Source of the DNA: Flexilinea sp.
GTDB lineage: Bacteria > Chloroflexota > Anaerolineae > Anaerolineales > Anaerolineaceae
NCBI GenBank assembly: GCA_017432685.1
Contig: JAFRIR010000066.1
Span: 1 to 59,418, forward strand
Length of the DNA stretch: 59,418 bases
Direction of reading: 5' to 3'
The translations under genes were made by a program, and so were the position numbers. Positions 13,754 to 31,953 of this stretch are shown in pieces. Below the pieces are notes generated by a model. It ran no database searches, had not been told where the DNA came from, and saw nothing but the letters and a program-made list of their open reading frames with translations. The first letter of the stretch is position 1, and each line of letters begins with the position of its first letter.

Positions 13754-13775
13754 AAATAGCCCCGATTCAATAGTG

Positions 13776-13820
13776 AAGACCGGTTTTCCGTCAAGAGCAT
13801 ATGGAAGCCGGTTTTTATTT
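13776..13820 (+). terminator. Terminator of the glycoside locus
   Basis: AAGACCGGTTTTCC at 13776-13789 pairs with GGAAGCCGGTTTTT at 13803-13816 and is followed by more T-rich sequence. The arms and the downstream TTTATTTTCAA match the terminator at 196-240 almost exactly, while the loops differ. Confidence 0.8.
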
Positions 13821-13840
13821 TCAAATGAAGAATAACAAAA

Positions 13841-13890
13841 CGGTAACATTTCGGAAACAATTCGGTAATCTTTGCCTGCTAATATATACA
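13841..13890 (+). promoter_or_regulatory. Three 11-bp direct repeats and a -10-like box before the SDR operon
   Basis: CGGTAACATTT (13841), CGGAAACAATT (13852) and CGGTAATCTTT (13863) follow one another without a gap, one helical turn each. TATACA at 13885-13890 can serve as -10, which would put the last repeat over the -35 position. Arrays of 11-bp direct repeats at -35 are typical of activation by OmpR/PhoB-type response regulators. The regulator itself is not in the window. Confidence 0.5.
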
Positions 13891-13935
13891 CAACAAAACA
13901 AAAAACAATGGCATATGCCATAAACGGAGGAAAAG

Positions 13936-15054: not shown

Positions 15055-15079
15055 ACAGAAAATAAAGGAGGAAAAGAAA

Positions 15080-15895
15080 ATGCGTAACGTTAGTGTAATC
15101 ACCGGAGGCGGAAGCGGCATCGGCTTCGCCATCGCTAAAAATATGCCGAAAGAAAATGTCATCGTGATCTGCGGAAGAACAGAAAAACGTCTGGAAAAAG
15201 CCTGCGAAGAACTGGCAGCAGAAGGCTATGATGCCCACTATATCACCTGCGATGTGACCAGCCGGAAGGATGTCCATGAGCTGTGCCTCTTTGCCAAATC
15301 CTTTGGAACCATCCAGAATGTGGTTCACGCGGCAGGGATGTCGCCCTCCATGTCGGATCCCGAGACCCTGATCCGGGTCAACGCGGTGGGAACGAAAAAT
15401 GTGAACATGGAATTCTTTAAATACATGGAAAAAGGCAGCGTGATCGTGGATGTTGCCAGCAATTCCGCTTATTCCCTGCCTGCGATCCTGATCCAGCATG
15501 GGACCTACAAGCTGGCAGAATACGAGGAAGACGAGTTTGTGAAGAAAATGCTTGGCGAGACTGCAATGGCACGAGGCGCGTATGAAAAGGCCGGAATGGC
15601 GTACGCTCTGTCAAAGAATTTTGTAATCTGGTACGCCCAAAAGTGCGCTTTCGAATATGGAAAGAAGGGCATCCGTGTCTGCTCCGTGAGTCCCGGACTG
15701 ATCGATACGGATATGGGGAACCTGGAGAAAGAACAGGGAGCGAAATTGATCTCATATTCCGCTGAAGAAAGAATGGGCACTGCCGATGAACTTGGCTTCA
15801 CCATCGCCATGATCGCGAATGTCCGGAGCGGCTACCTCGCGGGAACAGACGTCCTGATCGACGGCGGCAGTACCAACGGTAAGAATTTCAAATAA
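15080..15895 (+). CDS. Classical short-chain dehydrogenase/reductase
   Basis: This 271-residue classical SDR has TGGGSGIG (residues 8-15) for NAD(P) binding, DVTS near residue 60, and the catalytic YALSK (Tyr175, Lys179) preceded by the serine region VASNSAYS. The C-terminus carries SPGLIDTDMG and the usual ending YLAGTDVLIDGGSTNG. There is a 25-residue insertion between the serine and tyrosine motifs, longer than in FabG-type enzymes. The start at ATG 15080 is set by AAAGGAGG at 15064-15071; a much longer in-frame reading would overlap the previous gene. It is probably co-transcribed with the extended SDR, suggesting two redox steps on a shared substrate, which I cannot identify. Confidence 0.88.
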   Translation: MRNVSVITGGGSGIGFAIAKNMPKENVIVICGRTEKRLEKACEELAAEGYDAHYITCDVTSRKDVHELCLFAKSFGTIQNVVHAAGMSPSMSDPETLIRVNAVGTKNVNMEFFKYMEKGSVIVDVASNSAYSLPAILIQHGTYKLAEYEEDEFVKKMLGETAMARGAYEKAGMAYALSKNFVIWYAQKCAFEYGKKGIRVCSVSPGLIDTDMGNLEKEQGAKLISYSAEERMGTADELGFTIAMIANVRSGYLAGTDVLIDGGSTNGKNFK

Positions 15896-16670: not shown

Positions 16671-16772
16671 TTTCTTTATCAGATGATTTACACTTCAGGG
16701 AAAAAACTCGTTCATGATATCATTTTGAAAGGGTCTATATTGTTAGACAAATATAAAATTATGGAGGTTTCT

Positions 16773-17801
16773 ATGAAGAAGTTGTTGGTTTGTCTCGCAG
16801 CACTCGTTATGCTGCTTTCTGTCTGCGGAATGGCCATGGCTCAGGATACTCTAGTCATTTACTCTGCCCGCAATGAACGTTTGAATAACATTGTTATTCC
16901 GGCTTTTGAAGAAGCTACCGGCATTAAGGTCGAAATGATCACCGGTTCCTCAGGTGAGGTCTTGCAGCGTGTAAAGGCTGAAGTAGAATCCGGCAACGTG
17001 ACTGTTGACATCCACTGGGCAGCTGATGAAACCATGCTTGCCGCCAATCGTGACCTGTTTGAAGTCTATGTTCCGACCGAAAATGACAAATTGATGCCTG
17101 CTTTCCAGAATGACGGCACCAACTGCTTCAACAGTGCCTATGCAGAACCGAACGTCATGATCGTCAACACCGATATGCTCAAAGAAATGGGCATTGAAGT
17201 GAACAGTTATGCAGACCTGGCCCAGCCGCAGCTCAAAGGCAAGATCATTTCCGCCGACCCGGCGAACTCTTCTTCCGCCTTCCAGTGCCTGATCGGTATG
17301 CTCTATGGTATGGGAGATGGAGACCCGATGAGCGACAAGGCCTGGGATTTCATTGATGAATTTCTTGTCAACCTCGATGGAAAGATCGCTTCTTCTTCAT
17401 CTCAGGTTTACAACGGTGTTGCCAACGGTGAATATGCAGTCGGTCTGAGCTATGAAGACCCCTGTGTTGAGCTGGAAGCCACCGGTGAACATCCGGTCAA
17501 AGTCGTTTACGCGACTGAGGGTGTGATTTTCCCGGGTGAATCCGTTCAGATCATCAAGAACGCTCCGCACATGGAAGCCGCCCAGAAGTTCGTTGACTTC
17601 GTCCTTTCTGAAGAATCCCAGAACGCGGTTGCCGCGGAACTAAACCTGCGCCCGCTGCGCATGGGTGTTCCGACCAATGCAAAGATGGTTCCCACCGATG
17701 AACTCAAACTGTTCGATGCCTATTCTGCCAAATACATCGCTGAAAACAAGCCGGCGATCGTTGCAAAATACCTCGACCATGTGGAAATGACACTTGAGTA
17801 A
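16773..17801 (+). CDS. Iron/phosphosugar-family ABC transporter binding protein (operon 1)
   Basis: This 342-residue extracytoplasmic solute-binding protein begins with a signal peptide of 23 residues cut after AMA, with no lipobox cysteine. The mature start TLVIYSARNERLNN and the later ADPANSSSAF and LSYEDPC are typical of the FbpA/AfuA/PhnS cluster. Members bind ferric iron, but relatives bind hexose phosphates or 2-aminoethylphosphonate, so the ligand is open. I place the start at ATG 16773 behind GGAGG (16763-16767); a longer in-frame reading from 16683 would bury the signal peptide. It is the first gene of a binding protein-ATPase-permease operon, with a 238-bp gap before the ATPase gene. 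Confidence 0.85.
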   Translation: MKKLLVCLAALVMLLSVCGMAMAQDTLVIYSARNERLNNIVIPAFEEATGIKVEMITGSSGEVLQRVKAEVESGNVTVDIHWAADETMLAANRDLFEVYVPTENDKLMPAFQNDGTNCFNSAYAEPNVMIVNTDMLKEMGIEVNSYADLAQPQLKGKIISADPANSSSAFQCLIGMLYGMGDGDPMSDKAWDFIDEFLVNLDGKIASSSSQVYNGVANGEYAVGLSYEDPCVELEATGEHPVKVVYATEGVIFPGESVQIIKNAPHMEAAQKFVDFVLSEESQNAVAAELNLRPLRMGVPTNAKMVPTDELKLFDAYSAKYIAENKPAIVAKYLDHVEMTLE

Positions 17802-17803
17802 TG

Positions 17804-17831
17804 TGTGGTCTGTGGTCGGTGGTCTGTGGTC
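17804..17831. repeat. Heptamer tandem array (TGTGGTC-type, four units)
   Basis: TGTGGTC, TGTGGTC, GGTGGTC and TGTGGTC run without a gap, starting two bases after the stop codon of the binding-protein gene. A similar array on the opposite strand closes the same gap at 17998-18025. Confidence 0.8.
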
Positions 17832-17997
17832 AGAGAGCAGAGTTCCTTTGTCCATCGTGATTATTTACAAAACCGGCTCATATAACACGTTGAAAATTCA
17901 AAAGTCATAAAGCAAAACGGGAAGTCCGAAGCTTGTTGCAGGGCTTCCTGTATTTTTCACAAATAGAATGTAATTCGGCGGTAAGCGAAATAAATTC

Positions 17998-18025
17998 GAT
18001 CACTGACCACCGATCACCGACCACC
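17998..18025. repeat. Heptamer tandem array (GATCACC/GACCACC, four units)
   Basis: GATCACT, GACCACC, GATCACC and GACCACC run without a gap and end three bases before the ribosome binding site AAAGGAGG of the ATPase gene. The units are the reverse complement type (GGTGGTC) of those at 17804-17831, so the gap is bracketed by inverted arrays that could pair in the transcript. Confidence 0.8.
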
Positions 18026-18039
18026 GTAAAGGAGGATAA

Positions 18040-19116
18040 ATGGGTGTTTCTATTGAAATCGATAATGTCACAAAGGCATACCAGAACACTGTAGTCATCG
18101 AGGGGCTTTCTGCAACGATCAAACCGGGAGAGTTTTTCACACTACTGGGACCATCCGGATGCGGAAAAACGACCTTATTGCGTATGATCATTGGCTTTAA
18201 CTCTATTGAAGCCGGTGAAATCCGGGTGGACGGGAAACGAATCAATGACATCCCGACAAACAAACGCAACATGGGGATGGTATTCCAGAATTATGCAGTC
18301 TTTCCACACATGAACGTACGCGACAATGTAGCGTATGGACTGAAGAACCGCGGTGTCGGTAAAAATGATCGATATCAAAAGGTCGATGATATTTTGAGGC
18401 TGGTCAAGATCGATCAGTATGCAAACCGTATGCCGGCACAGCTTTCCGGCGGACAGCAGCAGCGTGTGGCCCTGGCACGTGCCATCGTGATCGAACCGGA
18501 TGTACTGCTGATGGATGAGCCGCTCTCCAACCTGGATGCGAAATTGCGTGTGGAAATGCGCAACGTCATCAAACGCATCCAGCACGAAGTCGGCATCACT
18601 ACGGTCTATGTGACACATGACCAGGAAGAGGCTCTGGCGATATCTGATCGCATTGCCGTCATGAACGGCGGCGTGATCCAGCAGATCGGTACGCCGAAAT
18701 TCATCTATCAGCGCCCGGCCAATGAATTTGTCTCCGGGTTTATCGGCCTTTCCAATTTCATTGACGCATCTTACAAGGATGGTGTAATCGATTTCGGAAG
18801 CTTCTACCGGGTTCCGCTGAAACTGGCTGATAATGCAGGTTCCGAGATCCGTGTTGCGGTCCGTCCGGATGAGTTTATCATCCGGAAAAAGAGTGAACCG
18901 GGTATTCCGGCAACCATCAACTCCAGCGTGTTCCTTGGGATGACACTGCATTACTTTGCGTCTTTAGATAACGGTCAGGAAGTGGAGATCGTGGTTCCAA
19001 GTGATTTGAGTGACATCCTGCCGGATGGCGAAAAAGTATCTCTGCAGGTGGTACCTGAAAAGATCAATGTGTTTGACAGAAAGAGCAAAAATACGCTGAT
19101 TCCGGAAGGAGCGTAG
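18040..19116 (+). CDS. ABC transporter ATP-binding protein (operon 1)
   Basis: This 358-residue importer ATPase has Walker A GPSGCGKTT (residues 37-45), Q-loop VFQNYAVFPHMNV, signature LSGGQQQR (from residue 135), Walker B LLMDEP (about 158-163) with D-loop SNLD, and the switch histidine in YVTHDQEEA. After about residue 240 a TOBE-like domain follows, as in FbpC, PotA and MalK-type importers. It powers uptake by the permease encoded one base downstream. AAAGGAGG precedes ATG 18040. The long gap from the binding-protein gene, bracketed by heptamer arrays, may set a lower expression level for the ATPase and permease than for the binding protein. Confidence 0.93.
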   Translation: MGVSIEIDNVTKAYQNTVVIEGLSATIKPGEFFTLLGPSGCGKTTLLRMIIGFNSIEAGEIRVDGKRINDIPTNKRNMGMVFQNYAVFPHMNVRDNVAYGLKNRGVGKNDRYQKVDDILRLVKIDQYANRMPAQLSGGQQQRVALARAIVIEPDVLLMDEPLSNLDAKLRVEMRNVIKRIQHEVGITTVYVTHDQEEALAISDRIAVMNGGVIQQIGTPKFIYQRPANEFVSGFIGLSNFIDASYKDGVIDFGSFYRVPLKLADNAGSEIRVAVRPDEFIIRKKSEPGIPATINSSVFLGMTLHYFASLDNGQEVEIVVPSDLSDILPDGEKVSLQVVPEKINVFDRKSKNTLIPEGA

Positions 19117-19117
19117 T

Positions 19118-20773
19118 ATGCAGGACAAAAAACAATCTCCGATCTGGACCTTCCTGGCATTGGCGATTCTGGCGCTGTTCCTGATTTTCGTCGTCTATCC
19201 GCTGGCGCTGGTCCTCTATAAAAGTGTTGTCGATCCGGGATCCGGTTCGATCACCTTTGCCAATTTCACCCGCTTCTTCTCGCGGAAATATTATACCAAC
19301 ACGCTGCTGAATTCCTTCAAGGTCACGACAGTAGTAACGTTGATCTGCGCTTTTCTGGGCTTGGTGATGGCGTACATCATCAAGCAGTACAACATCAAAG
19401 GCAGCAGCGCACTCAACATTGCTATCGTGCTGAGTTACCTGAGCCCTCCGTTCATTGGCGCTTATTCCTGGATCCAGCTGCTGGGTCGAAAGGGTCTGTT
19501 CACCAAAGCGATCAACAACCTGTTCGGTATCCAATTTGAAGGGATCTATGGGTTCTGGGGTATTGTGCTGGTCTTTTCACTCCAGTCTTTCCCTCTCGTT
19601 TATATGTATGTCTCGGGAGCTTTGGAAAACCTGGACAACTCCCTGAATGAAGCTGCGGAGTCTCTGGGCGCCAATAACTTTCAACGGGTCACCGGGATCA
19701 TCCTGCCGCTGGTACTGCCGACCGTGCTGGCCTCCTCCCTGCTGGTTTTCATGCGGGTTTTCTCTGATTTCGGTACACCGATGCTGATCGGTGAAGGCTA
19801 CCGCACTTATCCTGTGGTGCTGTATAACCAGTTTATGGGTGAGGTGACCAATGACTCGAACTTTGCGGCAGCCTTGTGCGTGATCATCATGCTCATCACG
19901 CTGGTTTTCTTCTTCCTGCAGCGCTGGATCGCAGCCCGGCATTCTTATTCCATGTCTGCGCTCAAGCCGATGCAGCCACGGACGCTGCGTACATTGCCGA
20001 ACATCCTGTGTCATGTCTTTGTTTATCTGGTCGTTCTGCTGGCAATGCTGCCGCAGCTGACAGTTATTGTGACTTCCTTCCTGAAGGAGTCCACTCCGGG
20101 TATTTTCACCAACGAACTTTCGCTGGTGAACTACCGCACGATTTTCTCGAAGAATCCACTGGTGATTCCGAACACTTATATCTTCGGTCTGTGCGCAATC
20201 GTTTTAGTGATCACCTTTGGTGTGCTGATCGCTTATCTGGCGGTGCGGCGCAAATCCGTGATCACAGAGACTGTGGACACGCTAACCATGCTGCCTTACA
20301 TCATCCCGGGTTCAGTGCTTGGTATCTGCTTCCTTTATGCTTTCGCAAAAGCCCCGCTGGCTTTAACGGGTACGGCAGCCATCATCATCATTGCGCTGAC
20401 CGTTCGGCGAATGCCCTACACCATCCGATCTTCAACGGCAATCATCAGCCAGATCAGCCCTTCCATTGAAGAAGCAGCAATCTCGCTGGGTTCCGGTGAA
20501 GTGAAGGCTTTCTGGGATGTCACGCTGCCGATGATGATGCCTGGAGTGATCTCCGGTGCCATCATGAGTTGGGTCACTGTCATCAGTGAACTGTCTTCAT
20601 CAATCATGCTATACCGGGCCAGTACGCAGACATTGACTGTTTCCGTTTATACGGAAGTCATCCGCGACTGTTTTGGCAACGCGGCTGCATATTCTACTGT
20701 TCTTACAGTTACCTCGGTCCTCTCCATGCTGCTCTTCTTTAAACTCACCGGCAAACGCAGTATGAGTGTATAA
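19118..20773 (+). CDS. ABC transporter permease, fused two-domain FbpB type (operon 1)
   Basis: This 551-residue inner-membrane protein has about twelve transmembrane segments in two halves. Each half has an ATPase-contact loop: EAAESLGANNFQRVTGIILP in the first and EAAISLGSGEVKAFWDVTLP in the second. That fused arrangement is standard for the iron/thiamine/phosphonate importer group (FbpB, AfuB). It starts one base after the ATPase stop, with AAGGAG inside the end of that gene, so translation is probably coupled. A strong terminator follows. Paralogue in this window: the permease at 26159-27991. Confidence 0.92.
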   Translation: MQDKKQSPIWTFLALAILALFLIFVVYPLALVLYKSVVDPGSGSITFANFTRFFSRKYYTNTLLNSFKVTTVVTLICAFLGLVMAYIIKQYNIKGSSALNIAIVLSYLSPPFIGAYSWIQLLGRKGLFTKAINNLFGIQFEGIYGFWGIVLVFSLQSFPLVYMYVSGALENLDNSLNEAAESLGANNFQRVTGIILPLVLPTVLASSLLVFMRVFSDFGTPMLIGEGYRTYPVVLYNQFMGEVTNDSNFAAALCVIIMLITLVFFFLQRWIAARHSYSMSALKPMQPRTLRTLPNILCHVFVYLVVLLAMLPQLTVIVTSFLKESTPGIFTNELSLVNYRTIFSKNPLVIPNTYIFGLCAIVLVITFGVLIAYLAVRRKSVITETVDTLTMLPYIIPGSVLGICFLYAFAKAPLALTGTAAIIIIALTVRRMPYTIRSSTAIISQISPSIEEAAISLGSGEVKAFWDVTLPMMMPGVISGAIMSWVTVISELSSSIMLYRASTQTLTVSVYTEVIRDCFGNAAAYSTVLTVTSVLSMLLFFKLTGKRSMSV

Positions 20774-22348: not shown

Positions 22349-23095
22349 TCATTCTTGTTCCGTTTTCAGTATCGTGTAGACTTCATAGATATCCGAAATC
22401 GTGTGAGTCGGTTTTTCCTCATAGGTTCCGACATCCTTAAGTGCAGTCAGCTGGGAATGGATGTGAAACGTTTTACCAAATCCGGCTCGAGTAGCTCCGA
22501 CAATATCACGGGAATAGGTATCGCCCACATAGGCACAATTTTCAGGTTTAGAGCGCATCTGATAAATTGAAACCTTGAAGATGTTGCCATCCGGCTTTCG
22601 GTAACCGGTCACTGAAGAAAGTGTCACATCCCGGAAATAATCCCGTATGCCATAATCCTCAAGAATCTGAAACACCTGATAGAGACTGGCGGTGTTTGAA
22701 ATAATGCCAAGTTTAATTCCCATGCCCATTAGCCCATCAAGCATCTCCTTCACCCGGGGACGAAGGGCTCGATGATAATGGGAGACTTCATACATATACG
22801 CAAGTTCTTCGGCAAAGGGTTTCACCTGCTCAAAGTTCAAACCAAAGCGGGGCATGACATAATTTCCCCAAATCTCTTCCGGTTTCAGTTCTCGGTCATC
22901 ACTGTCACGCTGTTTCCCGTAAGCGTCCCACCCTTCCTGCAGCAATTGAACAGCAGTTTCAACGTCTGCATCCAGTTTATATCCATGCTTTTCCGTAATT
23001 TTTAACATCTTTTCGGCAGCCTCACTGCGACTGGTGCTGTCAACAAAGATATCTTCCAGTGTTCCGCCCATATCAAACAAAACCGTATCAATCAT
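22349..23095 (-). CDS. HAD-family hydrolase (HAD 4)
   Basis: This 248-residue HAD-superfamily protein has motif I FDMGGTL (nucleophile Asp, second Asp replaced by Gly), motif II in IISNTAS, motif III lysine in GYRKPDGNIF, and motif IV GDTYSRDI. Between motifs I and II lies a helical cap of about 90 residues. It probably dephosphorylates a small phosphorylated metabolite. I start it at ATG 23095, six bases after GCGGAGG; this ATG lies in ATGATTGA, so it overlaps the stop of the upstream membrane-protein gene. It shares motif style with the three HAD proteins at 29685-31953, which suggests a common origin and related substrates. Confidence 0.88.
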   Translation of the reverse strand: MIDTVLFDMGGTLEDIFVDSTSRSEAAEKMLKITEKHGYKLDADVETAVQLLQEGWDAYGKQRDSDDRELKPEEIWGNYVMPRFGLNFEQVKPFAEELAYMYEVSHYHRALRPRVKEMLDGLMGMGIKLGIISNTASLYQVFQILEDYGIRDYFRDVTLSSVTGYRKPDGNIFKVSIYQMRSKPENCAYVGDTYSRDIVGATRAGFGKTFHIHSQLTALKDVGTYEEKPTHTISDIYEVYTILKTEQE

Positions 23096-23576
23096 AATCC
23101 TCCGCTTTATCATCGAGTCCTTCAGATTTTTTCCATATATACCAGGCTGAACCGCCTCCTAACAACAGCGGAACAGGCACCATAATCACAAACAAACGCA
23201 GGAAAATCGAAAGCGCATCCCGATCATCCTTCAGCATAACACACATCGCGATCAGGAACACCAGTGCAAAAATTGCCAGATAGACATATCCCAGAAAAGC
23301 CGGCTTCTTAGTACCGGTTAATTTCATAAGGAAAAGGCAAACTATTGCACCTGCCAGCCCTGGGACAAACGCTCCAATCATATCCGAAAGCCAGATTGGA
23401 AGTCCATCTGTGATCGGCGCCAGCACATCAACCAGCAGGTAATAGGCAGCACCGTAGACAACGAGATAAAAAGCGGCAAAAGTGATGCTATATGCAAATG
23501 CACCGCTTTTCATCTTTCCGTCTCTGGTGAAACGGAAAAATTCTTTAAATTCGAGCTTGTCCTGTTTATCGCTCAT
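23088..23576 (-). CDS. Small integral membrane protein of unknown function
   Basis: Read from ATG 23576 this is 162 residues: a short polar N-terminus (MSDKQDKLEFKEFFRF), four hydrophobic segments (about residues 26-50, 58-85, 92-112 and 122-148), and a short acidic tail (DDKAEDYD). An in-frame ATG at 23615 would extend it by 13 residues but falls inside a strong hairpin. I do not recognise a family. Its gene sits between the ABC binding protein of operon 2 and HAD protein 4 and overlaps the latter by eight bases, so it is probably co-translated with that enzyme. Confidence 0.65.
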   Translation of the reverse strand: MSDKQDKLEFKEFFRFTRDGKMKSGAFAYSITFAAFYLVVYGAAYYLLVDVLAPITDGLPIWLSDMIGAFVPGLAGAIVCLFLMKLTGTKKPAFLGYVYLAIFALVFLIAMCVMLKDDRDALSIFLRLFVIMVPVPLLLGGGSAWYIWKKSEGLDDKAEDYD

Positions 23577-23602
23577 TGTCTGTATTGCTGTAAATGAAAG
23601 AT

Positions 23603-23664
23603 GCACACAGGGCACAGCCCATCAGATCCGTTTTTGCGGCAGCCTTGGAACAGTCCCTGTGTGC
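23603..23664. repeat. Structured hairpin, copy 1 (CACACA...TGTGTG type)
   Basis: GCACACAGGG (23603-23612) and CCCTGTGTGC (23655-23664) form a perfect 10-bp stem around a 42-base loop that contains ACAGCCC. No T-run follows on either strand. A similar element stands at 33495-33560. Confidence 0.55.
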
Positions 23665-23683: not shown

Positions 23684-24874
23684 TTATTTATTCGGGCTCA
23701 TATCGTGCCAGTAAGTCCAAAAGTCAGAGACATCCAGATAATTGTCATAGATGCCTTCCATGTTAAGCGGCACAGTTCCGCTGTCAGCCAGGCTGAAGGG
23801 ATTCTTCTTGTTGAAATAATCATCACGGACAGACCAGGCGCCTTCCTTCATGACTTTCTTATAGCCTTCACCGGATCCATCTTCACCACCCATCATATAG
23901 CGTACAAAGAAGCGGGCAAGAGCCGGATTGTCGGAACCGGGGACAATAAATGAATAATTGGTGTTCTGACCTGAAACATAGGGCGCAAGTTCCGTCACCC
24001 AGGCGATCGGCCAGCCGTTGTCATCGCGGTTCCCGATCTTACCACCGGAAGCTAATCCGAGAACAGGATTTTCAGCTGTAGAATTGGCAACGGCCTCAAC
24101 GATTTCATCACCGTCACCAATGAAGGTCATCTTCAACTGAGAAAGGCGGTAGAGATATTCATAACCGGCATTGTTCTCTTCAAAGCCGAGGTCATCCGGG
24201 TAGGTATATTCAATCGGTTCACCGTATTTTTCTTCATAGGCAGCTTCCAGATCTTCCGGCTGGGAGACAAAGTGGCTGAACAGCGCAAGATATGTGGATT
24301 CAGAACCGATTTCTTTGGAATAAAGGTCATATTTCTGATTGCCGTTTTCATCCAGTTCGATGATATCCCACCAGTTATTCACCGGTGCGCCATCCGGAAA
24401 TGCATCTGTGTTGTAATACCAGAATGCTAAAGAAGTATAGAATGGCATACCATAGGTCAGCAGGCTGGGATCAATATGGGCGCAGATATCTTCCGGATAG
24501 TAAGCTTCCAAATATTTGCCATAATAGTTGAATGCAATATCTCCACGGGCATCGGCATCCTGAATCAGGTCAGCAATAATGTTTCCTGAGTCCACTTCGG
24601 TAACAACCTTCGTGATTCCTTCACCTCCATCCAAATCATAGACCTCAACGGTGAATTCAGGATACTCTTCCGCAAATGCATCAGCGATTTTGGACATTTT
24701 GCTGGTGGTTGAATAGACAACAAGCTTGCCGCCTTCGGCTTTTGCAAGTTCCAGGAGCTCATCCCCGGACATCGCGTTATATTCCGCATTGGTCGGAACG
24801 TCGATCGCGGCTGCGGTAAGAACCGTTGACAAAACCATTGTCAACACCATCAGATAAACAAAAATTTTCTTCAT
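23684..24874 (-). CDS. Iron/phosphosugar-family ABC transporter binding protein (operon 2)
   Basis: This 396-residue solute-binding protein has a 23-residue signal peptide cut after TAAA and no lipobox. The mature protein starts with an unusual insert (IDVPTNAEYNAMSGDELLELAKAEG, here residues 24-48) before the core GKLVVYSTTSKMSKIADAF, which belongs to the same type as ferric-iron and hexose-phosphate binding proteins. The start at ATG 24874 follows GAAAGGAAA; a longer reading to 24919 adds residues before the signal peptide. It is the last gene of a permease-ATPase-binding protein operon, the reverse of operon 1. Because this operon shares its operator with phosphatase genes, a phosphorylated ligand seems more likely than iron; this is inference. 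Confidence 0.85.
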   Translation of the reverse strand: MKKIFVYLMVLTMVLSTVLTAAAIDVPTNAEYNAMSGDELLELAKAEGGKLVVYSTTSKMSKIADAFAEEYPEFTVEVYDLDGGEGITKVVTEVDSGNIIADLIQDADARGDIAFNYYGKYLEAYYPEDICAHIDPSLLTYGMPFYTSLAFWYYNTDAFPDGAPVNNWWDIIELDENGNQKYDLYSKEIGSESTYLALFSHFVSQPEDLEAAYEEKYGEPIEYTYPDDLGFEENNAGYEYLYRLSQLKMTFIGDGDEIVEAVANSTAENPVLGLASGGKIGNRDDNGWPIAWVTELAPYVSGQNTNYSFIVPGSDNPALARFFVRYMMGGEDGSGEGYKKVMKEGAWSVRDDYFNKKNPFSLADSGTVPLNMEGIYDNYLDVSDFWTYWHDMSPNK

Positions 24875-24961
24875 GATTTTCCTTTCATTTGTTTTATGCT
24901 GATATATGATCAGCTGCAATACATTTACTATATTGTATCATCTGTATCCGTCAAAAAATAA

Positions 24962-26104
24962 TCAAAGACTTTTCGCCTTTTTCTTGTTTCTTGAATATTT
25001 TATCAAGCGAGTGGTTTCCTTGTTATATACATTGAAACGATCCGGTTTGATTTTCAGCAGCACTTCCTGGTCAATGTCATATTCGGCGATACCGATCTGC
25101 TTGAGCAGCAGTTCGTCACCACCTACGCGAACCGTCACCAGGGTTTCGGAACCGGCAGGTTGACCCGCATACACAATAGCAGTGATCGTGTTATCAGCTT
25201 CTTCTTCCGCAATCTTGATCTGTTCCGGACGGACACCGAGCACACAGTCAAACTCACCGGAAGGAATCTCTTCGTCTGTCCAGTCTTCCTTTGGATAATT
25301 GAAATCACCGAGGCTGCACTTCACGTTCATCACATCACCCTTCACGCAGGCTTTCCCGTTGATGAAATTGATGCGCGGGTTGCCGATGAAGTCCGCATTG
25401 CGCAGGTTATTCGGGTTCAGATAAAGATCCATAGGCTTGTCGACCTGGGAAAGCTTCCCGTTTTCAAACAGTGCGATCTTTGTGGACATGGTCAGAGCTT
25501 CCACCTGGTCATGGGTCACATAGATAATCGTCGTACCCAATTCCTTGTGCAGGCGCTTCAGCTCCGCGCGCATATCGGTACGCAATTTTGCGTCCAGGTT
25601 GGAAAGCGGTTCATCCAACAACAGCAATTCCGGAGAGGAAGCAATCGCACGGGCGATCGCCACACGCTGCTGCTGACCGCCGGAAAGCTCATTCGGATAG
25701 CGTTTTTCAAATTCAGCGATACGCATTCGTTCCAACGCATTGCGGACTGTCTTCTTTATCTCCTCAGAGGGCATCTTTTTGATCTTCAGTCCAAAAGCTA
25801 CATTGTCAAACACGGTCATATGCGGCCAGAGGGCATAGCTCTGGAACACCAGATTCAGGCCACGCTTCGATGGTTCCAGATAGAATGCTTCGTCACAATC
25901 GATCGCTTTTTTCCCGTTGATCAACATAACACCGCCCTGCGGACGTTCCAGTCCGGACACTACACGCAATGTTGTAGTTTTGCCACATCCAGATGGTCCC
26001 AACAGCGTCATGAAGTCGCCATCTTCAATGGTTAAATTTACATCATGCAGAACATGGTTTGTCCCGTAATATTTATCAATATGGATCAATTCAATTTTAC
26101 TCAT
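24962..26104 (-). CDS. ABC transporter ATP-binding protein (operon 2)
   Basis: This 380-residue importer ATPase has Walker A GPSGCGKTT, a Q-loop in VFQSYALWPHMTV, signature LSGGQQQR, Walker B LLLDEP with SNLD, and the switch histidine in YVTHDQVEA. A C-terminal TOBE domain follows (about residues 240-365), with LGVRPEQIKI. The enzyme belongs to the same importer class as the ATPase of operon 1. It is encoded 54 bp after the permease; that gap is filled largely by a heptamer array. Walker and switch residues are intact. Confidence 0.93.
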   Translation of the reverse strand: MSKIELIHIDKYYGTNHVLHDVNLTIEDGDFMTLLGPSGCGKTTTLRVVSGLERPQGGVMLINGKKAIDCDEAFYLEPSKRGLNLVFQSYALWPHMTVFDNVAFGLKIKKMPSEEIKKTVRNALERMRIAEFEKRYPNELSGGQQQRVAIARAIASSPELLLLDEPLSNLDAKLRTDMRAELKRLHKELGTTIIYVTHDQVEALTMSTKIALFENGKLSQVDKPMDLYLNPNNLRNADFIGNPRINFINGKACVKGDVMNVKCSLGDFNYPKEDWTDEEIPSGEFDCVLGVRPEQIKIAEEEADNTITAIVYAGQPAGSETLVTVRVGGDELLLKQIGIAEYDIDQEVLLKIKPDRFNVYNKETTRLIKYSRNKKKAKSL

Positions 26105-26158: not shown

Positions 26159-27991
26159 CTATCCCCAGCTCTTGCCGATATCCGCACCGGTTGCCAGGTT
26201 GGACAGGATGTAGGAAAACAGCACGAACACCAGCACCACCACTGAGATCGCGTCCGCCATCTGCGGGAGCACTTCTTTACTGTAAACAAATGACAAATAA
26301 GAGAGCGTTCGAGTGGAAGGTGTCATAAACAGGATGATCAAATCCAGCTCCTTGGCGATACTGATGAAAACCAGCAGAAAACCGGAAAGAAAACCGCCCT
26401 TCGCCAAAGGGATAACGATCTGTCCCAGTCGGCGCCAGAAGCTGGCACCGGCAATGTCCGCAGCTTCTTCCAATTCGGTTGATATCTGCATCATGGTTGC
26501 AGTGCCGGAACGGCTGGCAAACGGGAAATGTTTAACGACCGTCGCCAGCAAAATGATTGTGAAAGTACCGTATAGGGATGGAATCGGGCCGATCCTGCGG
26601 CTGAACATTGCCAGATAAATGGCAGCGAAAGCAACGGCAGGCATCAGATAAGGGATGAACACCAGCTGTTCAACCAGTTTCCCGTACCACTTGCCGCGTC
26701 CGCGGGAGGTGATATACCCCAGCAAACAACCGCAGAAAGCAGTGATGACCGAACCAACGATCGTAAGCACGACCGTGTTTTTCAGGGAGGAGAAGAACTC
26801 AGGGTTCTTGAAAATACCCGGATAGTTGACCATATCACGGGGAGCGTCCTTCAGTTCACCGATCCAGTTATAGAGGGTAAGGTTATCCGCACCGTAACCG
26901 GCGCCGGTCCGTATCTGGAAGGTTTCCATTACCAGAATAAACATCGGAACAAACATGGCAAAAATCAGGAAAATTCCCAGGAAAACCATGATCGGGTAAC
27001 GGGCTCCGCCCAGCTTCATCATGGTGCTGTGACCACCCTTCCCACCGATCGTCTCATAGGATTTACGGGTACCGATGAAAGCCTGGTTCGCCCAAATGGT
27101 ACCGGATGCCATAAGGATAAGCAGGATCGCCATGCAGTAGCCTACGGTTGCCGAACCGGTGTTGATGAAGTCATGCATTTTGGTTGCCAGTGTATAATAA
27201 CTGATGCGCAGCCCCAGGTTGGCCGCCACACCATAAGTTCCGATAGATTTACTCAGTGTCATGATCGCAGAGGAAAGCACTGCCGGCATCACCAGCGGCA
27301 GCGTGATGGAGCGCAGGATATAAACCTTGCTGGCTCCCTGGATCTCCCCCATCTCTTCCAGTTCACTGTTGATGGAACGGAGCGAACCGGAGACCATGAT
27401 GTAGGTGAAGGCATAATAATGCAGCACCATACACAAGATAATGGCAATCGGTCCGTAAGCCAGCCAGTCCGGTATATTCAGCCCAAGCCCCTGCAGAAAA
27501 CCAGGCGATCCTCCCCTATTGTTCCGAAATACTGCCAGCCAGGCCATGGATTTGCACCAGGAAGGGATCATATAAGGGATCATAATGCCCAGTGTCAGCC
27601 AGCGTTTTCCGGGCAGGTCACTGCGGACCATCAGCCAGGCAAGTCCCGCGCCAAGCGGAACGGCGATAATGGTCACAAAGAAAGCAATCGTCAGGGAATG
27701 TACTAAAGGTGTGAAGAAATTCGCCTTGGCAAGCTTCCCGGTCAACAGGTATTTCCAATAATACAGTGTAAAATCACCGACCTGTGCACCGGGATCGGTT
27801 TTTTGAACCCGGCGCAATTCGCCGGCAGCAAGGACAAAGGTTGTCCGCAGCATTCGAATCAGGGGGACTGCAATGAGAAAAATCAACAGGACCAGTGAGA
27901 TGAACACGATCATGTTGAAAGGATTCGTTACAACATCCAGAAATTGATTCTTCAGCTTTTTCCATGAAAATGGCTTTTTCGTCTCTGCCAT
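26159..27991 (-). CDS. ABC transporter permease, fused two-domain type (operon 2)
   Basis: This protein of about 610 residues has roughly twelve transmembrane segments in two permease halves, each with an ATPase-contact loop: EMGEIQGASKVYILRSITLP in the first and EAADIAGASFWRRLGQIVIP in the second. It is about 60 residues longer than the operon-1 permease, mainly through a hydrophilic N-terminus and the periplasmic loop between the halves. The start is one of two adjacent ATG codons (27994 or 27991) behind GAGAGGTGA; I use the second. It is the first gene of its operon, and a LacI-type palindrome lies 38 bp upstream. Confidence 0.9.
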   Translation of the reverse strand: MAETKKPFSWKKLKNQFLDVVTNPFNMIVFISLVLLIFLIAVPLIRMLRTTFVLAAGELRRVQKTDPGAQVGDFTLYYWKYLLTGKLAKANFFTPLVHSLTIAFFVTIIAVPLGAGLAWLMVRSDLPGKRWLTLGIMIPYMIPSWCKSMAWLAVFRNNRGGSPGFLQGLGLNIPDWLAYGPIAIILCMVLHYYAFTYIMVSGSLRSINSELEEMGEIQGASKVYILRSITLPLVMPAVLSSAIMTLSKSIGTYGVAANLGLRISYYTLATKMHDFINTGSATVGYCMAILLILMASGTIWANQAFIGTRKSYETIGGKGGHSTMMKLGGARYPIMVFLGIFLIFAMFVPMFILVMETFQIRTGAGYGADNLTLYNWIGELKDAPRDMVNYPGIFKNPEFFSSLKNTVVLTIVGSVITAFCGCLLGYITSRGRGKWYGKLVEQLVFIPYLMPAVAFAAIYLAMFSRRIGPIPSLYGTFTIILLATVVKHFPFASRSGTATMMQISTELEEAADIAGASFWRRLGQIVIPLAKGGFLSGFLLVFISIAKELDLIILFMTPSTRTLSYLSFVYSKEVLPQMADAISVVVLVFVLFSYILSNLATGADIGKSWG

Positions 27992-28028
27992 CATTCACCT
28001 CTCAATTCAGGTGTCTGTAAAGATTAAA

Positions 28029-28153: not shown

Positions 28154-29692
28154 CTACGCTCCGATCATATTGTCATAAGCCAGCTTGACCTTACCATAGT
28201 TTCCATCACGATCAAGGGCAATGCCGCGGCCGACACCGTCCACCACCTGCAGATTCAATCCGCGCGATTCGATCATCTCATCCAGCTCTTCCAGCAGTGC
28301 CGGCGCGGAACCTGGCTCTGTGCTGCGGCCGTCAAAGATAACATGGAGATAAACCTCCGGAAGATCCTTCGCCATTTCCGCAACCGCCAGAGGATAGTAG
28401 ATGGAGCCATGAGAGGATTTTTTGGTCAGCAAACCGATCAAATGAAGGGCGCAGCCTTTTTCTTTTGCATGGGCGATAGACTTCAGCAGCACCGGATTTT
28501 CCATGAAAGAACCATCCGCGATAGCACTGTCCAGACGGATATCATCCTGAGGCACCACCCGTCCGGCGCCAATGTTTGAGTGACCGGCTTCCGAGTTGCC
28601 GGGTTTACCTTCACCCAGACCCACATAACCACCGGAGGCATGCAGGGAAGACCATGCTTCCGATTCCAGCAGGTGATCCCAGTAGGGTGTATCTCCGAGG
28701 AAGATCGCATCATTGTCCGTTTTGTCGCCGAAACCCCAGCCGTCGCAGATGATCAGCAGCATCTTCCGGTCTTTGCCGAAATCATGCCCGCTGCAAAGCA
28801 CTTTTCCATCCATCTCCGCCGGCTGGTCGATTTCCATCACGTTCAGGACCGTCGGGGCAATATCCTTCAGGGAACCGTCTTTCAGTGTTATCGGAGCATT
28901 GTTTTCCGGATCGATCATGATAAACGCTACCAGGTTGGAGGTATGTGCCACATGCGGCTTGCCTTTGTCGGTATGCAGCACCTCGATGTTGCCATGATCG
29001 GCTGTGATGGCAACCACATATCCCGCTTTTTTTGCAGCGGTAACGACCTTTTCCAGTGCACGGCTCACATGGCCGGCTGCTTCGATCTTGGCGGCATCGT
29101 TTGCGGTATGACCGATCACATCCCCATTAGCAAAATTCGTTACAATAAAATCATATTTTCCCAGCGCGTCAACGACTTTGTCCGCCACCTCAGGCAGGGA
29201 TAGCTCCGGTTTGGTGTCAAACGGAACTCCCTTCAGCGAAGGAACACAGGTATCAGTCTCACCGGGGAACGGTTGATTTTCCCCACCGTTCAGGAAAAAA
29301 GTCACATGCGCAAATTTTTCGGATTCCGAACAATGGAACTGTGTCTTTCCGGCTTTGCTCAAGACTTCCGCCAGCGGCATCTTCACGTGAGACGGGCCGA
29401 AAACGACCGGCAAATCCTTGAATTTTTCATGATAAAGTGTCAGGATGGAAAAATCCAGATTCTTCAGCGCTTTCCGCTCAACCTTATCAAAATCCGGATC
29501 GGTGAACATTTCGGTCAGTTCGATCTCACGCTCACCGCGGCGGCAGCAGAACACTACATTGTCACCATCGTGAATACAGCCGGTTCCGAGTGTGATCGGG
29601 TTCAGCGAATAATCAATTTCCCCTTTATCATAGGATCGGCGAACCAGTTTCGCCAGCTCTGTACCGCCGTGTGTCTTTTTCATTTCAATCAT
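28154..29692 (-). CDS. Circularly permuted cofactor-independent phosphoglycerate mutase (iPGM)
   Basis: This 512-residue alkaline-phosphatase-superfamily enzyme carries all iPGM motifs in swapped order. Residues about 10-300 match the second half of GpmI: RxxR at Arg52 and Arg55, SEKFAHVTFFLNGG with Lys126, NFANGDVIGH with Asp191 and His195, TADHGN with Asp232 and His233, PHVAH with His250, then DIAPT. Residues about 310-512 match the first half: CDGWG with Asp317, GNSEAGH with nucleophile Ser367, IGAGRVV, a histidine at 428, DGRSTEP with Arg456, and GRGIALDRD. The aspartate of the family motif GRDT is Ser457. ATG 29692 follows GGGAGG and overlaps the HAD 3 stop. It should interconvert 2- and 3-phosphoglycerate, or act on a related phosphoester. 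Confidence 0.9.
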   Translation of the reverse strand: MIEMKKTHGGTELAKLVRRSYDKGEIDYSLNPITLGTGCIHDGDNVVFCCRRGEREIELTEMFTDPDFDKVERKALKNLDFSILTLYHEKFKDLPVVFGPSHVKMPLAEVLSKAGKTQFHCSESEKFAHVTFFLNGGENQPFPGETDTCVPSLKGVPFDTKPELSLPEVADKVVDALGKYDFIVTNFANGDVIGHTANDAAKIEAAGHVSRALEKVVTAAKKAGYVVAITADHGNIEVLHTDKGKPHVAHTSNLVAFIMIDPENNAPITLKDGSLKDIAPTVLNVMEIDQPAEMDGKVLCSGHDFGKDRKMLLIICDGWGFGDKTDNDAIFLGDTPYWDHLLESEAWSSLHASGGYVGLGEGKPGNSEAGHSNIGAGRVVPQDDIRLDSAIADGSFMENPVLLKSIAHAKEKGCALHLIGLLTKKSSHGSIYYPLAVAEMAKDLPEVYLHVIFDGRSTEPGSAPALLEELDEMIESRGLNLQVVDGVGRGIALDRDGNYGKVKLAYDNMIGA

Positions 29693-30476
29693 TTTTCTCA
29701 CCTCCCGGCCATGCCGCCTCAGGCGGGATCATTGCCGTTGTATTGACTTTACCCGGTTCCGGGAACAAGTCCAGCAGCTGCGGGAAAGCGAAGATCACGC
29801 AGTCAGGACGGTTTTCCGAATTTAATGTATATTTTTTCGCTCCCCATTTTGCCGCAATGGTCATTCCCATGTTGACTGCCTTTGCACCGATAATATCCCG
29901 GTCCAGATTATCACCCAGAAAAGCGCTGTTCTCTGCGGGAATCCCGACTTCATCCAATGCATAATAGTAGATCGCCGGTCCCGGTTTGCGGACGTAACAG
30001 ACCGAAGACTGCTGAACAGTTTTGAAATAGGGCCGCAGCCTGTCTTCATCCAGCCATTCATCGATCTCTTTTGTCCCAACCAGGTCGGAGATGATCCCGA
30101 CCGCATAACCCCGGCGGTTCAGCTCTTTCACCGTCTCGATCCCGCCATCCACCACAACCCGACGGCCTTTGGTTCGCCTGTATTGATAGGTTAGTTCACC
30201 GGCATATTTCCGGATACGTTCCGGATCCCGGTCGTAAGCCAGCCAGCGGCCCCAGAGGACCTGTTCCGGAGCTTCACAATAATATTTCAGCGCCCATTCA
30301 CGGTAAACATCATAACGGGGAGAGATCACTTCATCATAAAACTTTTCCGCATCTTCATCCGTGCCGCACATTTCTGCGATCTTCCGTTTCGCATCCAGAA
30401 TATATTCCTTTTCCTTCCTTATGATCCGGAAAGTATCGCCCAGATCCAGATAAATAGCCCGAATATCTGTATTCAT
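29685..30476 (-). CDS. HAD-family hydrolase (HAD 3)
   Basis: This 263-residue HAD-superfamily protein has motif I YLDLGDTF (nucleophile Asp, second catalytic position Gly), a helical cap up to about residue 90, motif II GIISD, the motif III lysine in VRKPGPAIYYY, and motif IV GDNLDRDI. A conserved GRRVVVDGG segment before motif II is also present in HAD 2. It probably removes phosphate from a small metabolite. Its ATG overlaps the stop of HAD 2 by one base (TGATG), and its own stop overlaps the start of the permuted mutase gene, so all four genes of this operon are translationally coupled. Confidence 0.88.
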   Translation of the reverse strand: MNTDIRAIYLDLGDTFRIIRKEKEYILDAKRKIAEMCGTDEDAEKFYDEVISPRYDVYREWALKYYCEAPEQVLWGRWLAYDRDPERIRKYAGELTYQYRRTKGRRVVVDGGIETVKELNRRGYAVGIISDLVGTKEIDEWLDEDRLRPYFKTVQQSSVCYVRKPGPAIYYYALDEVGIPAENSAFLGDNLDRDIIGAKAVNMGMTIAAKWGAKKYTLNSENRPDCVIFAFPQLLDLFPEPGKVNTTAMIPPEAAWPGGEKND

Positions 30477-31210
30477 CAGGCCTCCTTTGGCGGGAACAGC
30501 GGCAGCAGCTCGCGAAAATCATTAATGACAGCATCCGGTGGGTTTTCCCCATTCGGATCCACCGGATGTTTCTTTTCCGGAGAATTGTAAATCACGTTAT
30601 AAGCGATCCCGGCTTCCCGGGCACCTTCGATATCTCTCCCCTGGTTATCAGCAACCGATGCTATCTGTTCACAGGGTACGCCCAGATCCCGGCTGCTGAC
30701 CCGGTAAATTTCCGCATCCGGTTTTCGCAGACCGCATTCCGGGGAAAGAATCACAGAGGAGAAAAGCTCCCGCAAGTTGTCATCATCCAGCCAATCGTAA
30801 ACTTCCGTTTCCCCGATGAGGTTGCTGATGATCCCGAGCTTATATCCTCTTTTGTAAAGTTCGCGCAGCACCTCTTTCCCATGCTCCACAACGACCCGGC
30901 GTCCCTTTGACTGGCGATATTCATAGGATAATTTATGACGGTTTGTAAAAATCAGGTCATGCGGATAATCGAAGAGCAGCCACTTGCACCAGAGCTCTTC
31001 GTCGTTAGACTCCTTGTTTTCGCGTAAAGCCCATTCGCGGTATTTTTCGTAACGCTCTTCCACCAGCCCATAAAATTCTTCAAAAGGCAGGTCCGTCCCG
31101 GCCAATTCAGCCATATGGATCCTGCCCTGCTTCATCCATTCTTCATCCTTCAATGCAATCCGAAGGGTTCCGCCTAAATCAAATACGATGGCAGTGATGT
31201 TTTCGTTCAT
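30476..31210 (-). CDS. HAD-family hydrolase (HAD 2)
   Basis: This 244-residue HAD-superfamily protein begins with FDLGGTLRIAL (motif I, nucleophile Asp, Gly at the second position). It has the cap domain, GRRVVVEHG, motif II GIISN, the motif III lysine in LRKPDAEIYRV, and a motif IV altered to ADNQGRD where HAD 1, 3 and 4 have GDN or GDT. That change may alter metal binding and activity. Its start overlaps the HAD 1 stop in ATGA. The protein is clearly a tandem duplicate of its neighbours, but the copies are well diverged, so they may act on different phosphoesters. Confidence 0.88.
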   Translation of the reverse strand: MNENITAIVFDLGGTLRIALKDEEWMKQGRIHMAELAGTDLPFEEFYGLVEERYEKYREWALRENKESNDEELWCKWLLFDYPHDLIFTNRHKLSYEYRQSKGRRVVVEHGKEVLRELYKRGYKLGIISNLIGETEVYDWLDDDNLRELFSSVILSPECGLRKPDAEIYRVSSRDLGVPCEQIASVADNQGRDIEGAREAGIAYNVIYNSPEKKHPVDPNGENPPDAVINDFRELLPLFPPKEA

Positions 31211-31953
31211 GCCTGCTTTCCTTTCCGATCCGGCAGGATCGTGAGCAAATCAGAAAGTTTCGTGATGACATAATCAGGAATAAATTCCTTGCCGGTGGCT
31301 TTTTCGCGGTTCAGCGTATCCGGTTCATCGATCCGAATCATCAAACCGAACCCGGCTGCCTGGGTTCCTTCTACATCACGAACGGGATTGTCACCAACAT
31401 ATGCGCAATTTTCCGGTTTTGTACCGATACAACGACAGGCAAGATAATAGATCTCGGGATTCGGTTTGCGCAGCCGGACCTTGGAGGAAAGGATGGTTGT
31501 CTTGAAATAACGAGCTACATGATCTGTCACCATCCAATCCGGGATCTCGGTTTCCGTCACGGTGTTGGCAATGATCCCCATAGTATAGCCCATGCGGTCG
31601 AGCCCTTCCAGCGTCTCACGGACATCCGGACGTGCGACCCTTCTGCCGTCATGATCACGCCACAAGCGTGTCAGCCGGCTGGCATGTGAAGCAATCAGCT
31701 CCGGATCATAATCCGGCAGCATATACTGCATCCACAATTCCATCTCAGAGCAATCGAGCAAAGAAGACTTTGCAAGCTTGCGGTAAGCCTTCCAGCGGTC
31801 TTCCAGTTTAGCAAAGAATTCGTCATGTGATTCTTTCGTCTCTGTGAGTTTCATCAATTCAGCTTCAGCTGCTTCAATGAACGGCTTATCCGGAAGAACG
31901 ATCCGCAATGTGTTTCCGACATCAAAAAAAACTGTTTGAATATCTTTGTTCAT
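31207..31953 (-). CDS. HAD-family hydrolase (HAD 1)
   Basis: This 248-residue HAD-superfamily protein opens with FFDVGNTLRIVL (motif I, nucleophile Asp, Gly at the second catalytic position). It then has a helical cap (about residues 15-95), the GRRVARPD segment, motif II GIIAN, the motif III lysine in RLRKPNPEIYYL, and motif IV GDNPVRDV. DxGN-type motif I occurs in known sugar-phosphate phosphatases such as YihX. It is the first gene of the four-gene operon. A LacI-type operator lies 33 bp upstream of its start. Confidence 0.88.
   Translation of the reverse strand: MNKDIQTVFFDVGNTLRIVLPDKPFIEAAEAELMKLTETKESHDEFFAKLEDRWKAYRKLAKSSLLDCSEMELWMQYMLPDYDPELIASHASRLTRLWRDHDGRRVARPDVRETLEGLDRMGYTMGIIANTVTETEIPDWMVTDHVARYFKTTILSSKVRLRKPNPEIYYLACRCIGTKPENCAYVGDNPVRDVEGTQAAGFGLMIRIDEPDTLNREKATGKEFIPDYVITKLSDLLTILPDRKGKQA

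Follow-up and report, generated by a model that had tools for sequence, protein, structure and literature searches.

A circularly permuted relative of cofactor-independent phosphoglycerate mutase in Flexilinea sp. and its family, with a probable role outside glycolysis

The 2,3-bisphosphoglycerate-independent phosphoglycerate mutase (iPGM, GpmI) has a transferase domain inserted into a phosphatase domain. Its catalytic serine and metal ligands, in B. stearothermophilus numbering, are presumably S62 and D12, D403, H407, D444, H445 and H462. According to passages of PMC3886921, nine residues contact the substrate: S62, H123, R153, D154, R185, R191, R261, R264 and K336. A second described system is the Thermotoga-type operon, which handles inositol and keto derivatives and includes TM0415, a myo-inositol kinase that depends on pyrophosphate (PPi) and makes myo-inositol monophosphate (excerpts of PMC5931981). 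The window studied here is the whole 59,418-nucleotide contig JAFRIR010000066.1 of Flexilinea sp. (assembly GCA_017432685.1). On its minus strand, positions 28154-29692 form a single uninterrupted frame of 512 amino acids, in which the C-terminal half of iPGM comes first, followed by a short linker and then by the N-terminal half. An earlier note, made from the sequence of the window, knew of no described natural permuted iPGM; searches of open-licence papers likewise found none, which does not prove its absence, and the string "permut" does not occur in PMC2964296. The features that concern the protein itself are the following:

28154..29692, minus strand: circularly permuted iPGM-like protein, 512 amino acids, ATG start, 28154 being the end of the stop codon (43-sequence alignment; AlphaFold2 model)
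28769..28795, minus strand: linker from the native C-terminus to the native N-terminus, residues about 300-308 in ATG numbering (13 residues between fixed flanks)
28592..28594, minus strand: Ser367 codon, aligned to the catalytic serine S62 (S in 54/54 permuted and 46/46 ordinary proteins)
28322..28324, minus strand: Ser457 codon, replacing Asp154 of B. stearothermophilus iPGM (alignment of 54 + 46 proteins)

The swapped halves in one frame, already reported in the earlier note, are borne out by two comparisons. The best phmmer match in the PDB pairs residues 23-302 with residues 237-518 of the 5vpu chain and residues 315-510 with residues 20-216 of the same chain (E 7.7e-94), and the NCBIfam model TIGR01307 is matched in two separate stretches with 457 bits, against a cut-off of 330.65. 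These computed positions follow a 515-residue protein read from a GTG, and ATG numbering is 3 lower. In the same 515-residue numbering, Pfam places Metalloenzyme (best stretch 77-292) before iPGM_N (391-513). The protein therefore scores as an iPGM by TIGR01307, but it does not show the iPGM domain order of phosphatase part, transferase domain and phosphatase part, since the halves are swapped, in its relatives likewise. The frame is open from the stop at 28154 up to the GTG at 29701, the first possible start. The ATG at 29692 is preceded by a Shine-Dalgarno-like GGAGGTGAG and is the better start, because the GTG at 29701 falls within that stretch; this agrees with the gene end proposed at the outset. 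A short linker joining the native ends had also been described, and its length is nearly constant, since in 43 of 53 permuted proteins 13 residues separate the fixed flanks; the sequence is poorly conserved (mean 41% vs 68% for the whole protein). As judged from its sequence, the gene is confirmed as a circular permutation of iPGM. Automated annotation likely names the protein an ordinary phosphoglycerate mutase and hides the permutation, because the TIGR01307 threshold is passed.

The new termini lie between residues about 206 and 212 of B. stearothermophilus iPGM, within the transferase domain, and not at the domain hinge, near which the earlier note had put them. The two hinge strands correspond to about residue 101 and about residues 381-382 of the permuted protein, and both are kept. 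The iPGM domain limits we take to be 76/77 and 310/311, and the 76/77 boundary agrees with rigid-body ranges from structural comparison. By this mapping the permutation would turn the architecture inside out: a continuous phosphatase domain (about 101-381) would interrupt the transferase domain (382-512 plus 1-100). The AlphaFold2 model of the whole chain has a predicted local distance difference test score (pLDDT) of 91.0 and a predicted template modelling score (pTM) of 0.80; in structural alignment its C-half matches iPGM, and the aligners used place only that half.

The genome of the window is in 151 contigs and 87% complete, and a join made during assembly, or an error of gene calling, could give such an order in one genome. 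This explanation has practically no probability and is ruled out by 54 distinct proteins from many assemblies that show the same swapped order, by a complete genome, CP102272.1 of [Clostridium] asparagiforme DSM 15981, which contains the permuted gene (L008) and a second copy of it, by the grouping of the permuted proteins on one tree branch and by the near-constant linker length. A scan of genome contigs gave 48 loci: 32 (L004-L033, L050 and L051) are in permuted order, with 54-92% identity, and the other 16 (L034-L049) comprise 15 in ordinary order as two segments and one truncated locus, L047. Among the permuted loci, 31 match over about 500 residues and L032 is cut by the contig end. The order is not due to chance or assembly error, since it is shared by 32 of the 48 loci, one of them in the complete genome. 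The permuted loci also include L011, on a contig of Oscillibacter valericigenes strain An411; a named-strain contig with the swapped order is NZ_JACSNX010000005.1.

In the family of the window's genome, 22 of 147 genomes match at E 1e-50 and 19, its own genome included, contain the complete permuted gene; of the remaining three, G137 is truncated at a contig end, G098 carries the gene as two fragments on separate contigs and G055 shows ordinary order (L072). A search of 150 genomes of the class with TIGR01307 gave matches above the cut-off in 16 genomes, contig C58 of the window's own genome included, and, below the cut-off, strong pairs of partial matches with the halves swapped in the own genome (C32) and in 14 further genomes; in G153 the pieces are on two contigs. 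Thirteen loci from this search are permuted by blast: six with 55-57% identity (L090-L092, L094, L096 and L099), and seven with 36-39% identity (L093, L095, L097, L098, L100, L102 and L103), which constitute a second subfamily, B, beside the window's subfamily A. In the phylum, 141 of 301 genomes match at E 1e-40, and the match is uninterrupted through both halves only in the own genome and in G305 (subfamily B). Outside the phylum, the permuted gene is rare: it is found in one of 295 genomes of the order of C. asparagiforme, with two copies there, and in four of 200 genomes of the family of O. valericigenes. C. asparagiforme DSM 15981 has its two permuted copies at L008:9995-11569 (plus strand) and L130:9189-10988 (minus strand) in addition to an ordinary gpmI; the L130 copy, which was left out of the alignment and tree sets, is 62-66% identical to the nearest subfamily A rows. 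Quick trees place the permuted rows on one side of a single branch, with SH-aLRT 99 in the tree of 85 rows and 100 in that of 99 rows, the latter showing the two subfamilies and made without the long-branch row C_L002, the ordinary copy of the window's own genome. In blast alignments the proteins of both subfamilies have their termini at roughly the same points, which fits one permutation event. Subfamily B contains L093, L095, L097, L098, L100, L102, L103 and L115, all with Gly at the Asp154 position. A His_Phos_1 gene overlaps the end of the subfamily B gene in L105 (the same gene as L098), and in L109 (the gene of L097) a member of that neighbour's cluster is found at this position.

For comparison of the active sites, the permuted proteins were rotated into ordinary order by a script, and 54 permuted and 46 ordinary proteins were aligned. 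Fourteen of 15 catalytic positions are invariant in 100/100 proteins (D12, S62, H123, R153, R185, R191, R261, R264, K336, D403, H407, D444, H445 and H462), and D154 alone separates permuted from ordinary proteins: it is D in 46/46 ordinary proteins, S in 46/46 of subfamily A and G in 8/8 of subfamily B. The catalytic serine and the six metal ligands are thus kept in all 54 permuted and all 46 ordinary proteins, and the residues listed for them in the earlier note (D317, S367, D191, H195, D232, H233 and H250) fit the aligned positions. R261 and R264 of 1ejj align without gaps to R52 and R55 (ATG numbering), and the substrate arginines and lysine, which had been described as kept, are all invariant. 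The only change reported at the outset, from the aspartate of GRDT to Ser457, holds for the whole set: eight of the nine substrate residues are kept and the ninth, D154, is S457 here and S or G in 54/54 permuted proteins. Two loops also differ, with SSHG at H123 in the permuted proteins vs GVHS or GVHA in the ordinary iPGMs shown, and RGERE where the latter carry RxDR. Loss of Asp154 would remove a negative charge next to the substrate and so would suit a bulkier or more anionic ligand; together with the changed H123 and R261/R264 loops it suggests a different, probably larger or more anionic acceptor. The protein is a homologue of iPGM that should not be filed as an iPGM equivalog, because both a substrate residue and the domain order depart from those of iPGM.

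Most of the genomes checked have another phosphoglycerate mutase. The window's own genome shows an ordinary-order gpmI on contig C58 with D154 kept (425.7 bits with TIGR01307, above the cut-off), which answers the question, raised in the earlier note, of a normal gpmI or gpmA elsewhere in the genome. This copy (G000:C58:18808-20364) is very divergent, with a branch of 3.61, and keeps all 15 checked positions. Among 35 genomes with the permuted gene, 29 have a match to the archaeal-type phosphoglycerate mutase (aPGM) and 17 have a match to GpmA (TIGR01258) above the cut-off, the scores of G000 and G045 passing only by the sum of neighbouring pieces of a 190-residue frame. In the window's family most aPGM matches are copies in the gene cassette described below, and 14 of the 15 family genomes checked outside the own genus show a GpmA match over 380 bits, likewise G047 of the own genus; the 15th, G030, is 70% complete. 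All six subfamily A genomes of other families in this check contain an aPGM above the cut-off on another contig than the permuted gene, and eight of nine subfamily B-type genomes have one above the cut-off, with G200 below it at 286 bits. Of 14 Firmicutes genomes, ten show an ordinary gpmI above the cut-off, two a partial one (G573 and G577) and two only the permuted gene (G576 and G584). In G042 and G046, of the own genus, no aPGM or GpmA was found above the cut-off; the gpmI search was not made there, nor in G045. Since most checked genomes carry another phosphoglycerate mutase, the permuted protein probably does not serve as the enzyme of glycolysis. An incidentally permuted but otherwise ordinary phosphoglycerate mutase, with a condition-specific or redundant role, would explain the TIGR01307 score, the eight kept substrate residues and the few genomes in which no other such mutase was seen (G042 and G046 by aPGM and GpmA, G576 and G584 by TIGR01307); it is nevertheless improbable in view of the loss of D154 in all 54 proteins, the other mutases, the sporadic distribution (four of 200 genomes of one Firmicutes family, one of 295 of one order) and the company of HAD and importer genes. 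What looked like one odd protein is a member of a divergent but conserved family, whose active site differs in a consistent way and whose role probably lies outside glycolysis.

The neighbourhood of the permuted gene in the window contains HAD-family hydrolases and an ATP-binding cassette (ABC) importer:

29685..30476, minus strand: HAD W1, HAD-family hydrolase, 8-nucleotide overlap with the start of the permuted gene (Pfam PF13419/PF00702; best match is the HAD directly upstream in L150, L151 and L152)
30476..31210, minus strand: HAD W2, HAD-family hydrolase (Pfam; same relative order in L150-L152)
31207..31953, minus strand: HAD W3, HAD-family hydrolase (Pfam; same relative order in L150-L152)
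26159..27994, minus strand: ABC importer permease, fused double BPD_transp_1 (Pfam PF00528)
24962..26104, minus strand: ABC importer ATPase (Pfam ABC_tran and TOBE_2)
23684..24919, minus strand: ABC solute-binding protein (Pfam SBP_bac_1)
23088..23615, minus strand: small hydrophobic protein of family d11, no Pfam hit at 1e-4 (d11 in 6 loci of the set)
22349..23113, minus strand: HAD W4, HAD-family hydrolase (Pfam; 58% identical relative in L150)

The stop codon of W1 overlaps the ATG of the permuted gene within these 8 nucleotides. For the ATPase, the best 25 of 188 NCBIfam matches (UgpC, PotA, PhnT2 and others) are all below their cut-offs. Within 9.5 kb of the permuted gene in 38 subfamily A loci, which represent 37 places as L050 and L110 coincide, relatives of the HADs are found at 30, of the solute-binding protein at 24, of the fused permease at 22, of a LacI regulator at 16, of a PRK/uridine-kinase-like protein at 15, of aPGM at 14 (the L017 copy being above the PRK04135 cut-off) and of an RpiR regulator at 12. 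None of these seven kinds of relatives was found at the 16 ordinary iPGM loci or at six subfamily B loci. A tandem row of four HADs ends at the permuted gene in each of L150, L151 and L152, loci from the O. valericigenes family: the three nearest the gene are in W3-, W2- and W1-like order, with the W1-like one adjoining it, and L150 starts with two W3-like copies. The D-x-G-x-T motif is present in 57 of 65 proteins of the HAD cluster and the pattern is unmatched in eight. In C. asparagiforme, the L008 copy is accompanied by an ABC importer and the L130 copy by RpiR and TctA/TctC genes. A further importer of this general type, with its own solute-binding protein, ATPase and permease, is encoded in the window at 16683-20773 (plus strand) and does not adjoin the permuted gene. 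The PRK/uridine-kinase-like proteins of L017 (11578-12765 and 14026-15237) and their relatives show a conserved N-terminal part of about 190 residues without Pfam hit, with a high-confidence model. In L113, a membrane-bound H+-pyrophosphatase gene (13282-15597, plus strand) points away from the cassette, which is notable in that PPi is used by TM0415-like kinases.

Some of the loci contain genes of inositol metabolism. In L012, an IolG gene (TIGR04380, above the cut-off) follows the permuted gene on the same strand after 31 nucleotides; L017 also has an IolG above the cut-off, and L023 has IolM (504 against a cut-off of 450) and IolN (291 against 245). An IolG, IolM, IolN or TM0415-like gene is near the permuted gene in L012, L013, L017, L023 and L027. 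A blast with 13 queries on 41 subfamily A loci, the window included, gave relatives of the L012 PfkB kinase at eight, of PHP, GDPD and UxaE at five each, of IolG at four and of IolN at one, counts that include the match of every query to its own locus; none of the 13 matched the six subfamily B or the 16 ordinary loci. In the PDB, the L012 PfkB kinase matches TM0415-type chains only (three sequences, best E 3e-38). Among the 147 family genomes, IolG (E 1e-80) is found in 20 of the 21 that carry the permuted gene and in 32 of the 126 that do not (Fisher 8.5e-10), and without the own genus in 15 of 16 vs 24 of 117 (Fisher 1.3e-8), relatedness being ignored in both tests. Of 15 genomes outside the own genus, 11 have IolG no more than 12.5 kb away from the permuted gene and one has it 23 kb away; in the other three the two genes are on different contigs, the permuted one being on a short contig or at a contig end.

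Taken with the active site, this gene company suggests as substrate a phosphorylated polyol that is taken up from outside, an inositol phosphate being the most likely. The window protein would belong to a naturally permuted, functionally shifted iPGM clade and would act as a metal-dependent phosphoserine phosphotransferase on such a compound, a reading to which we give an even chance; phosphoryl transfer as such is the more probable part of it, and a specific inositol phosphate the less probable part. By analogy with iPGM, two metal ions would activate Ser367, which would take the phosphate from one substrate oxygen while the conserved His, Lys and five Arg hold the substrate, and the phosphate would then go either to a different oxygen of that substrate molecule, as in a mutase, or to water, as in a phosphatase. 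The ABC importer may bring the phosphorylated polyol in, the permuted enzyme may move or remove phosphate so that the HAD hydrolases can finish, and the resulting myo-inositol may enter the IolG/IolM/IolN route. Of the two options in the earlier note, an enzyme retuned to another phosphoester is favoured by the absence of D154 in the 54 proteins, the other phosphoglycerate mutases and the gene company, and a normal mutase with altered domain motion is disfavoured.

A mutase is mildly favoured over a phosphatase, to judge from the residues and the neighbouring genes. A phosphatase, in which water would hydrolyse the phosphoserine once Asp154 is lost, overlaps with the polyol reading and is rather unlikely, as HAD hydrolases often already adjoin the gene and all the other mutase substrate residues are kept. 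In its most specific form the proposal is an inositol-phosphate phosphomutase, an undescribed enzyme class, that might move, for example, a hard-to-remove axial phosphate to a neighbouring ring position, at the core of a bacterial pathway for the import of phosphorylated inositols and their breakdown within the cell; we offer this form tentatively, as less probable than not.

Several observations weigh against the polyol reading. No related HAD is found at eight of the 38 loci, and at L008, L014, L015 and L033 the gene is accompanied by an importer alone; the L130 copy of C. asparagiforme, whose RpiR and TctA/TctC neighbours include a carboxylate transporter, has no HAD, permease or solute-binding relative in 19.5 kb. 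Inositol genes are at a minority of loci (IolG relatives at four of 41, an IolN relative at one) and none was found in the window with the 13 queries. Of the 14 genomes of the own genus, 13 contain IolG, whether or not they carry the permuted gene, and it is located on contigs other than that of the permuted gene. The association of IolN (E 1e-30) is weak (8 of 21 vs 19 of 126, p 0.018), that of IolG (E 1e-80) in the family of O. valericigenes concerns two of four permuted-gene genomes (G574, and G1033 below the cut-off) vs four of 196 others, and related genomes are not independent data points. All the arginines with which iPGM binds carboxylate and phosphate are present and would also suit a phosphorylated acid. 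This last point, the TctA/TctC and RpiR genes beside the second C. asparagiforme copy, and relatives of UxaE, a mannonate-oxidoreductase-type short-chain dehydrogenase/reductase and a hexonate-epimerase-like LarA near the gene in L019, L023, L027 and L028 (UxaE and the reductase also in L017) are consistent with a phosphorylated sugar acid as substrate, a phosphoglycerate-like hexonate or tetronate phosphate taken in by a phospho-carboxylate importer. We regard that substrate as unlikely: the sugar-acid genes also have a place in the inositol route of Thermotoga type, whose later steps run through 5-keto-L-gluconate and tagaturonate (intermediates in excerpts of PMC5931981), and the IolG 31 nucleotides downstream in L012 and the co-occurrence of IolG favour inositol.

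iPGM is a well-studied enzyme that needs domain closure for catalysis, and a natural permutation in which its host and inserted domains change places offers a ready-made test of the part played by topology and domain motion; the invariable loss of Asp154 is a one-residue handle on what makes iPGM a glycerate mutase. The glycolytic label given by annotation pipelines is probably wrong for the permuted protein. Inositol phosphates are common in plant food and soil, and the permuted family is scattered among gut and sediment bacteria; an inositol-phosphate substrate, if true, would point to an intracellular route by which bacteria of gut, rumen and sediment use inositol phosphates derived from phytate or phospholipids.

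Compared with the known systems, the permuted protein differs from GpmI (TIGR01307; 1EJJ, 1O98 and 5VPU) in its swapped halves, the replacement of D154 by S or G, altered loops and gene company. aPGM (PRK04135/TIGR00306) belongs to the same superfamily with a different arrangement, and at the thresholds used no alignment column separates 14 of the cassette aPGMs from 13 free-standing ones. The importer shows a distant likeness to the sugar-phosphate ABC importer AfuABC (passages of PMC4546632): the solute-binding proteins of L014 and L017 match 'Fe3+'-type and pyridoxal-phosphate binding proteins, with best E-values of 1e-12 and 3e-8, and the permease of the cassette is fused. The PDB chains 4r72-4r75 we take to be AfuA. 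Members of the Thermotoga-type inositol cluster (IolG, IolM, IolN and TM0415) have counterparts near some relatives of the window gene, namely IolG in L012 and L017, IolM and IolN in L023 and a TM0415-like kinase, and beyond that cluster the loci described here add HADs, an importer and the permuted enzyme.
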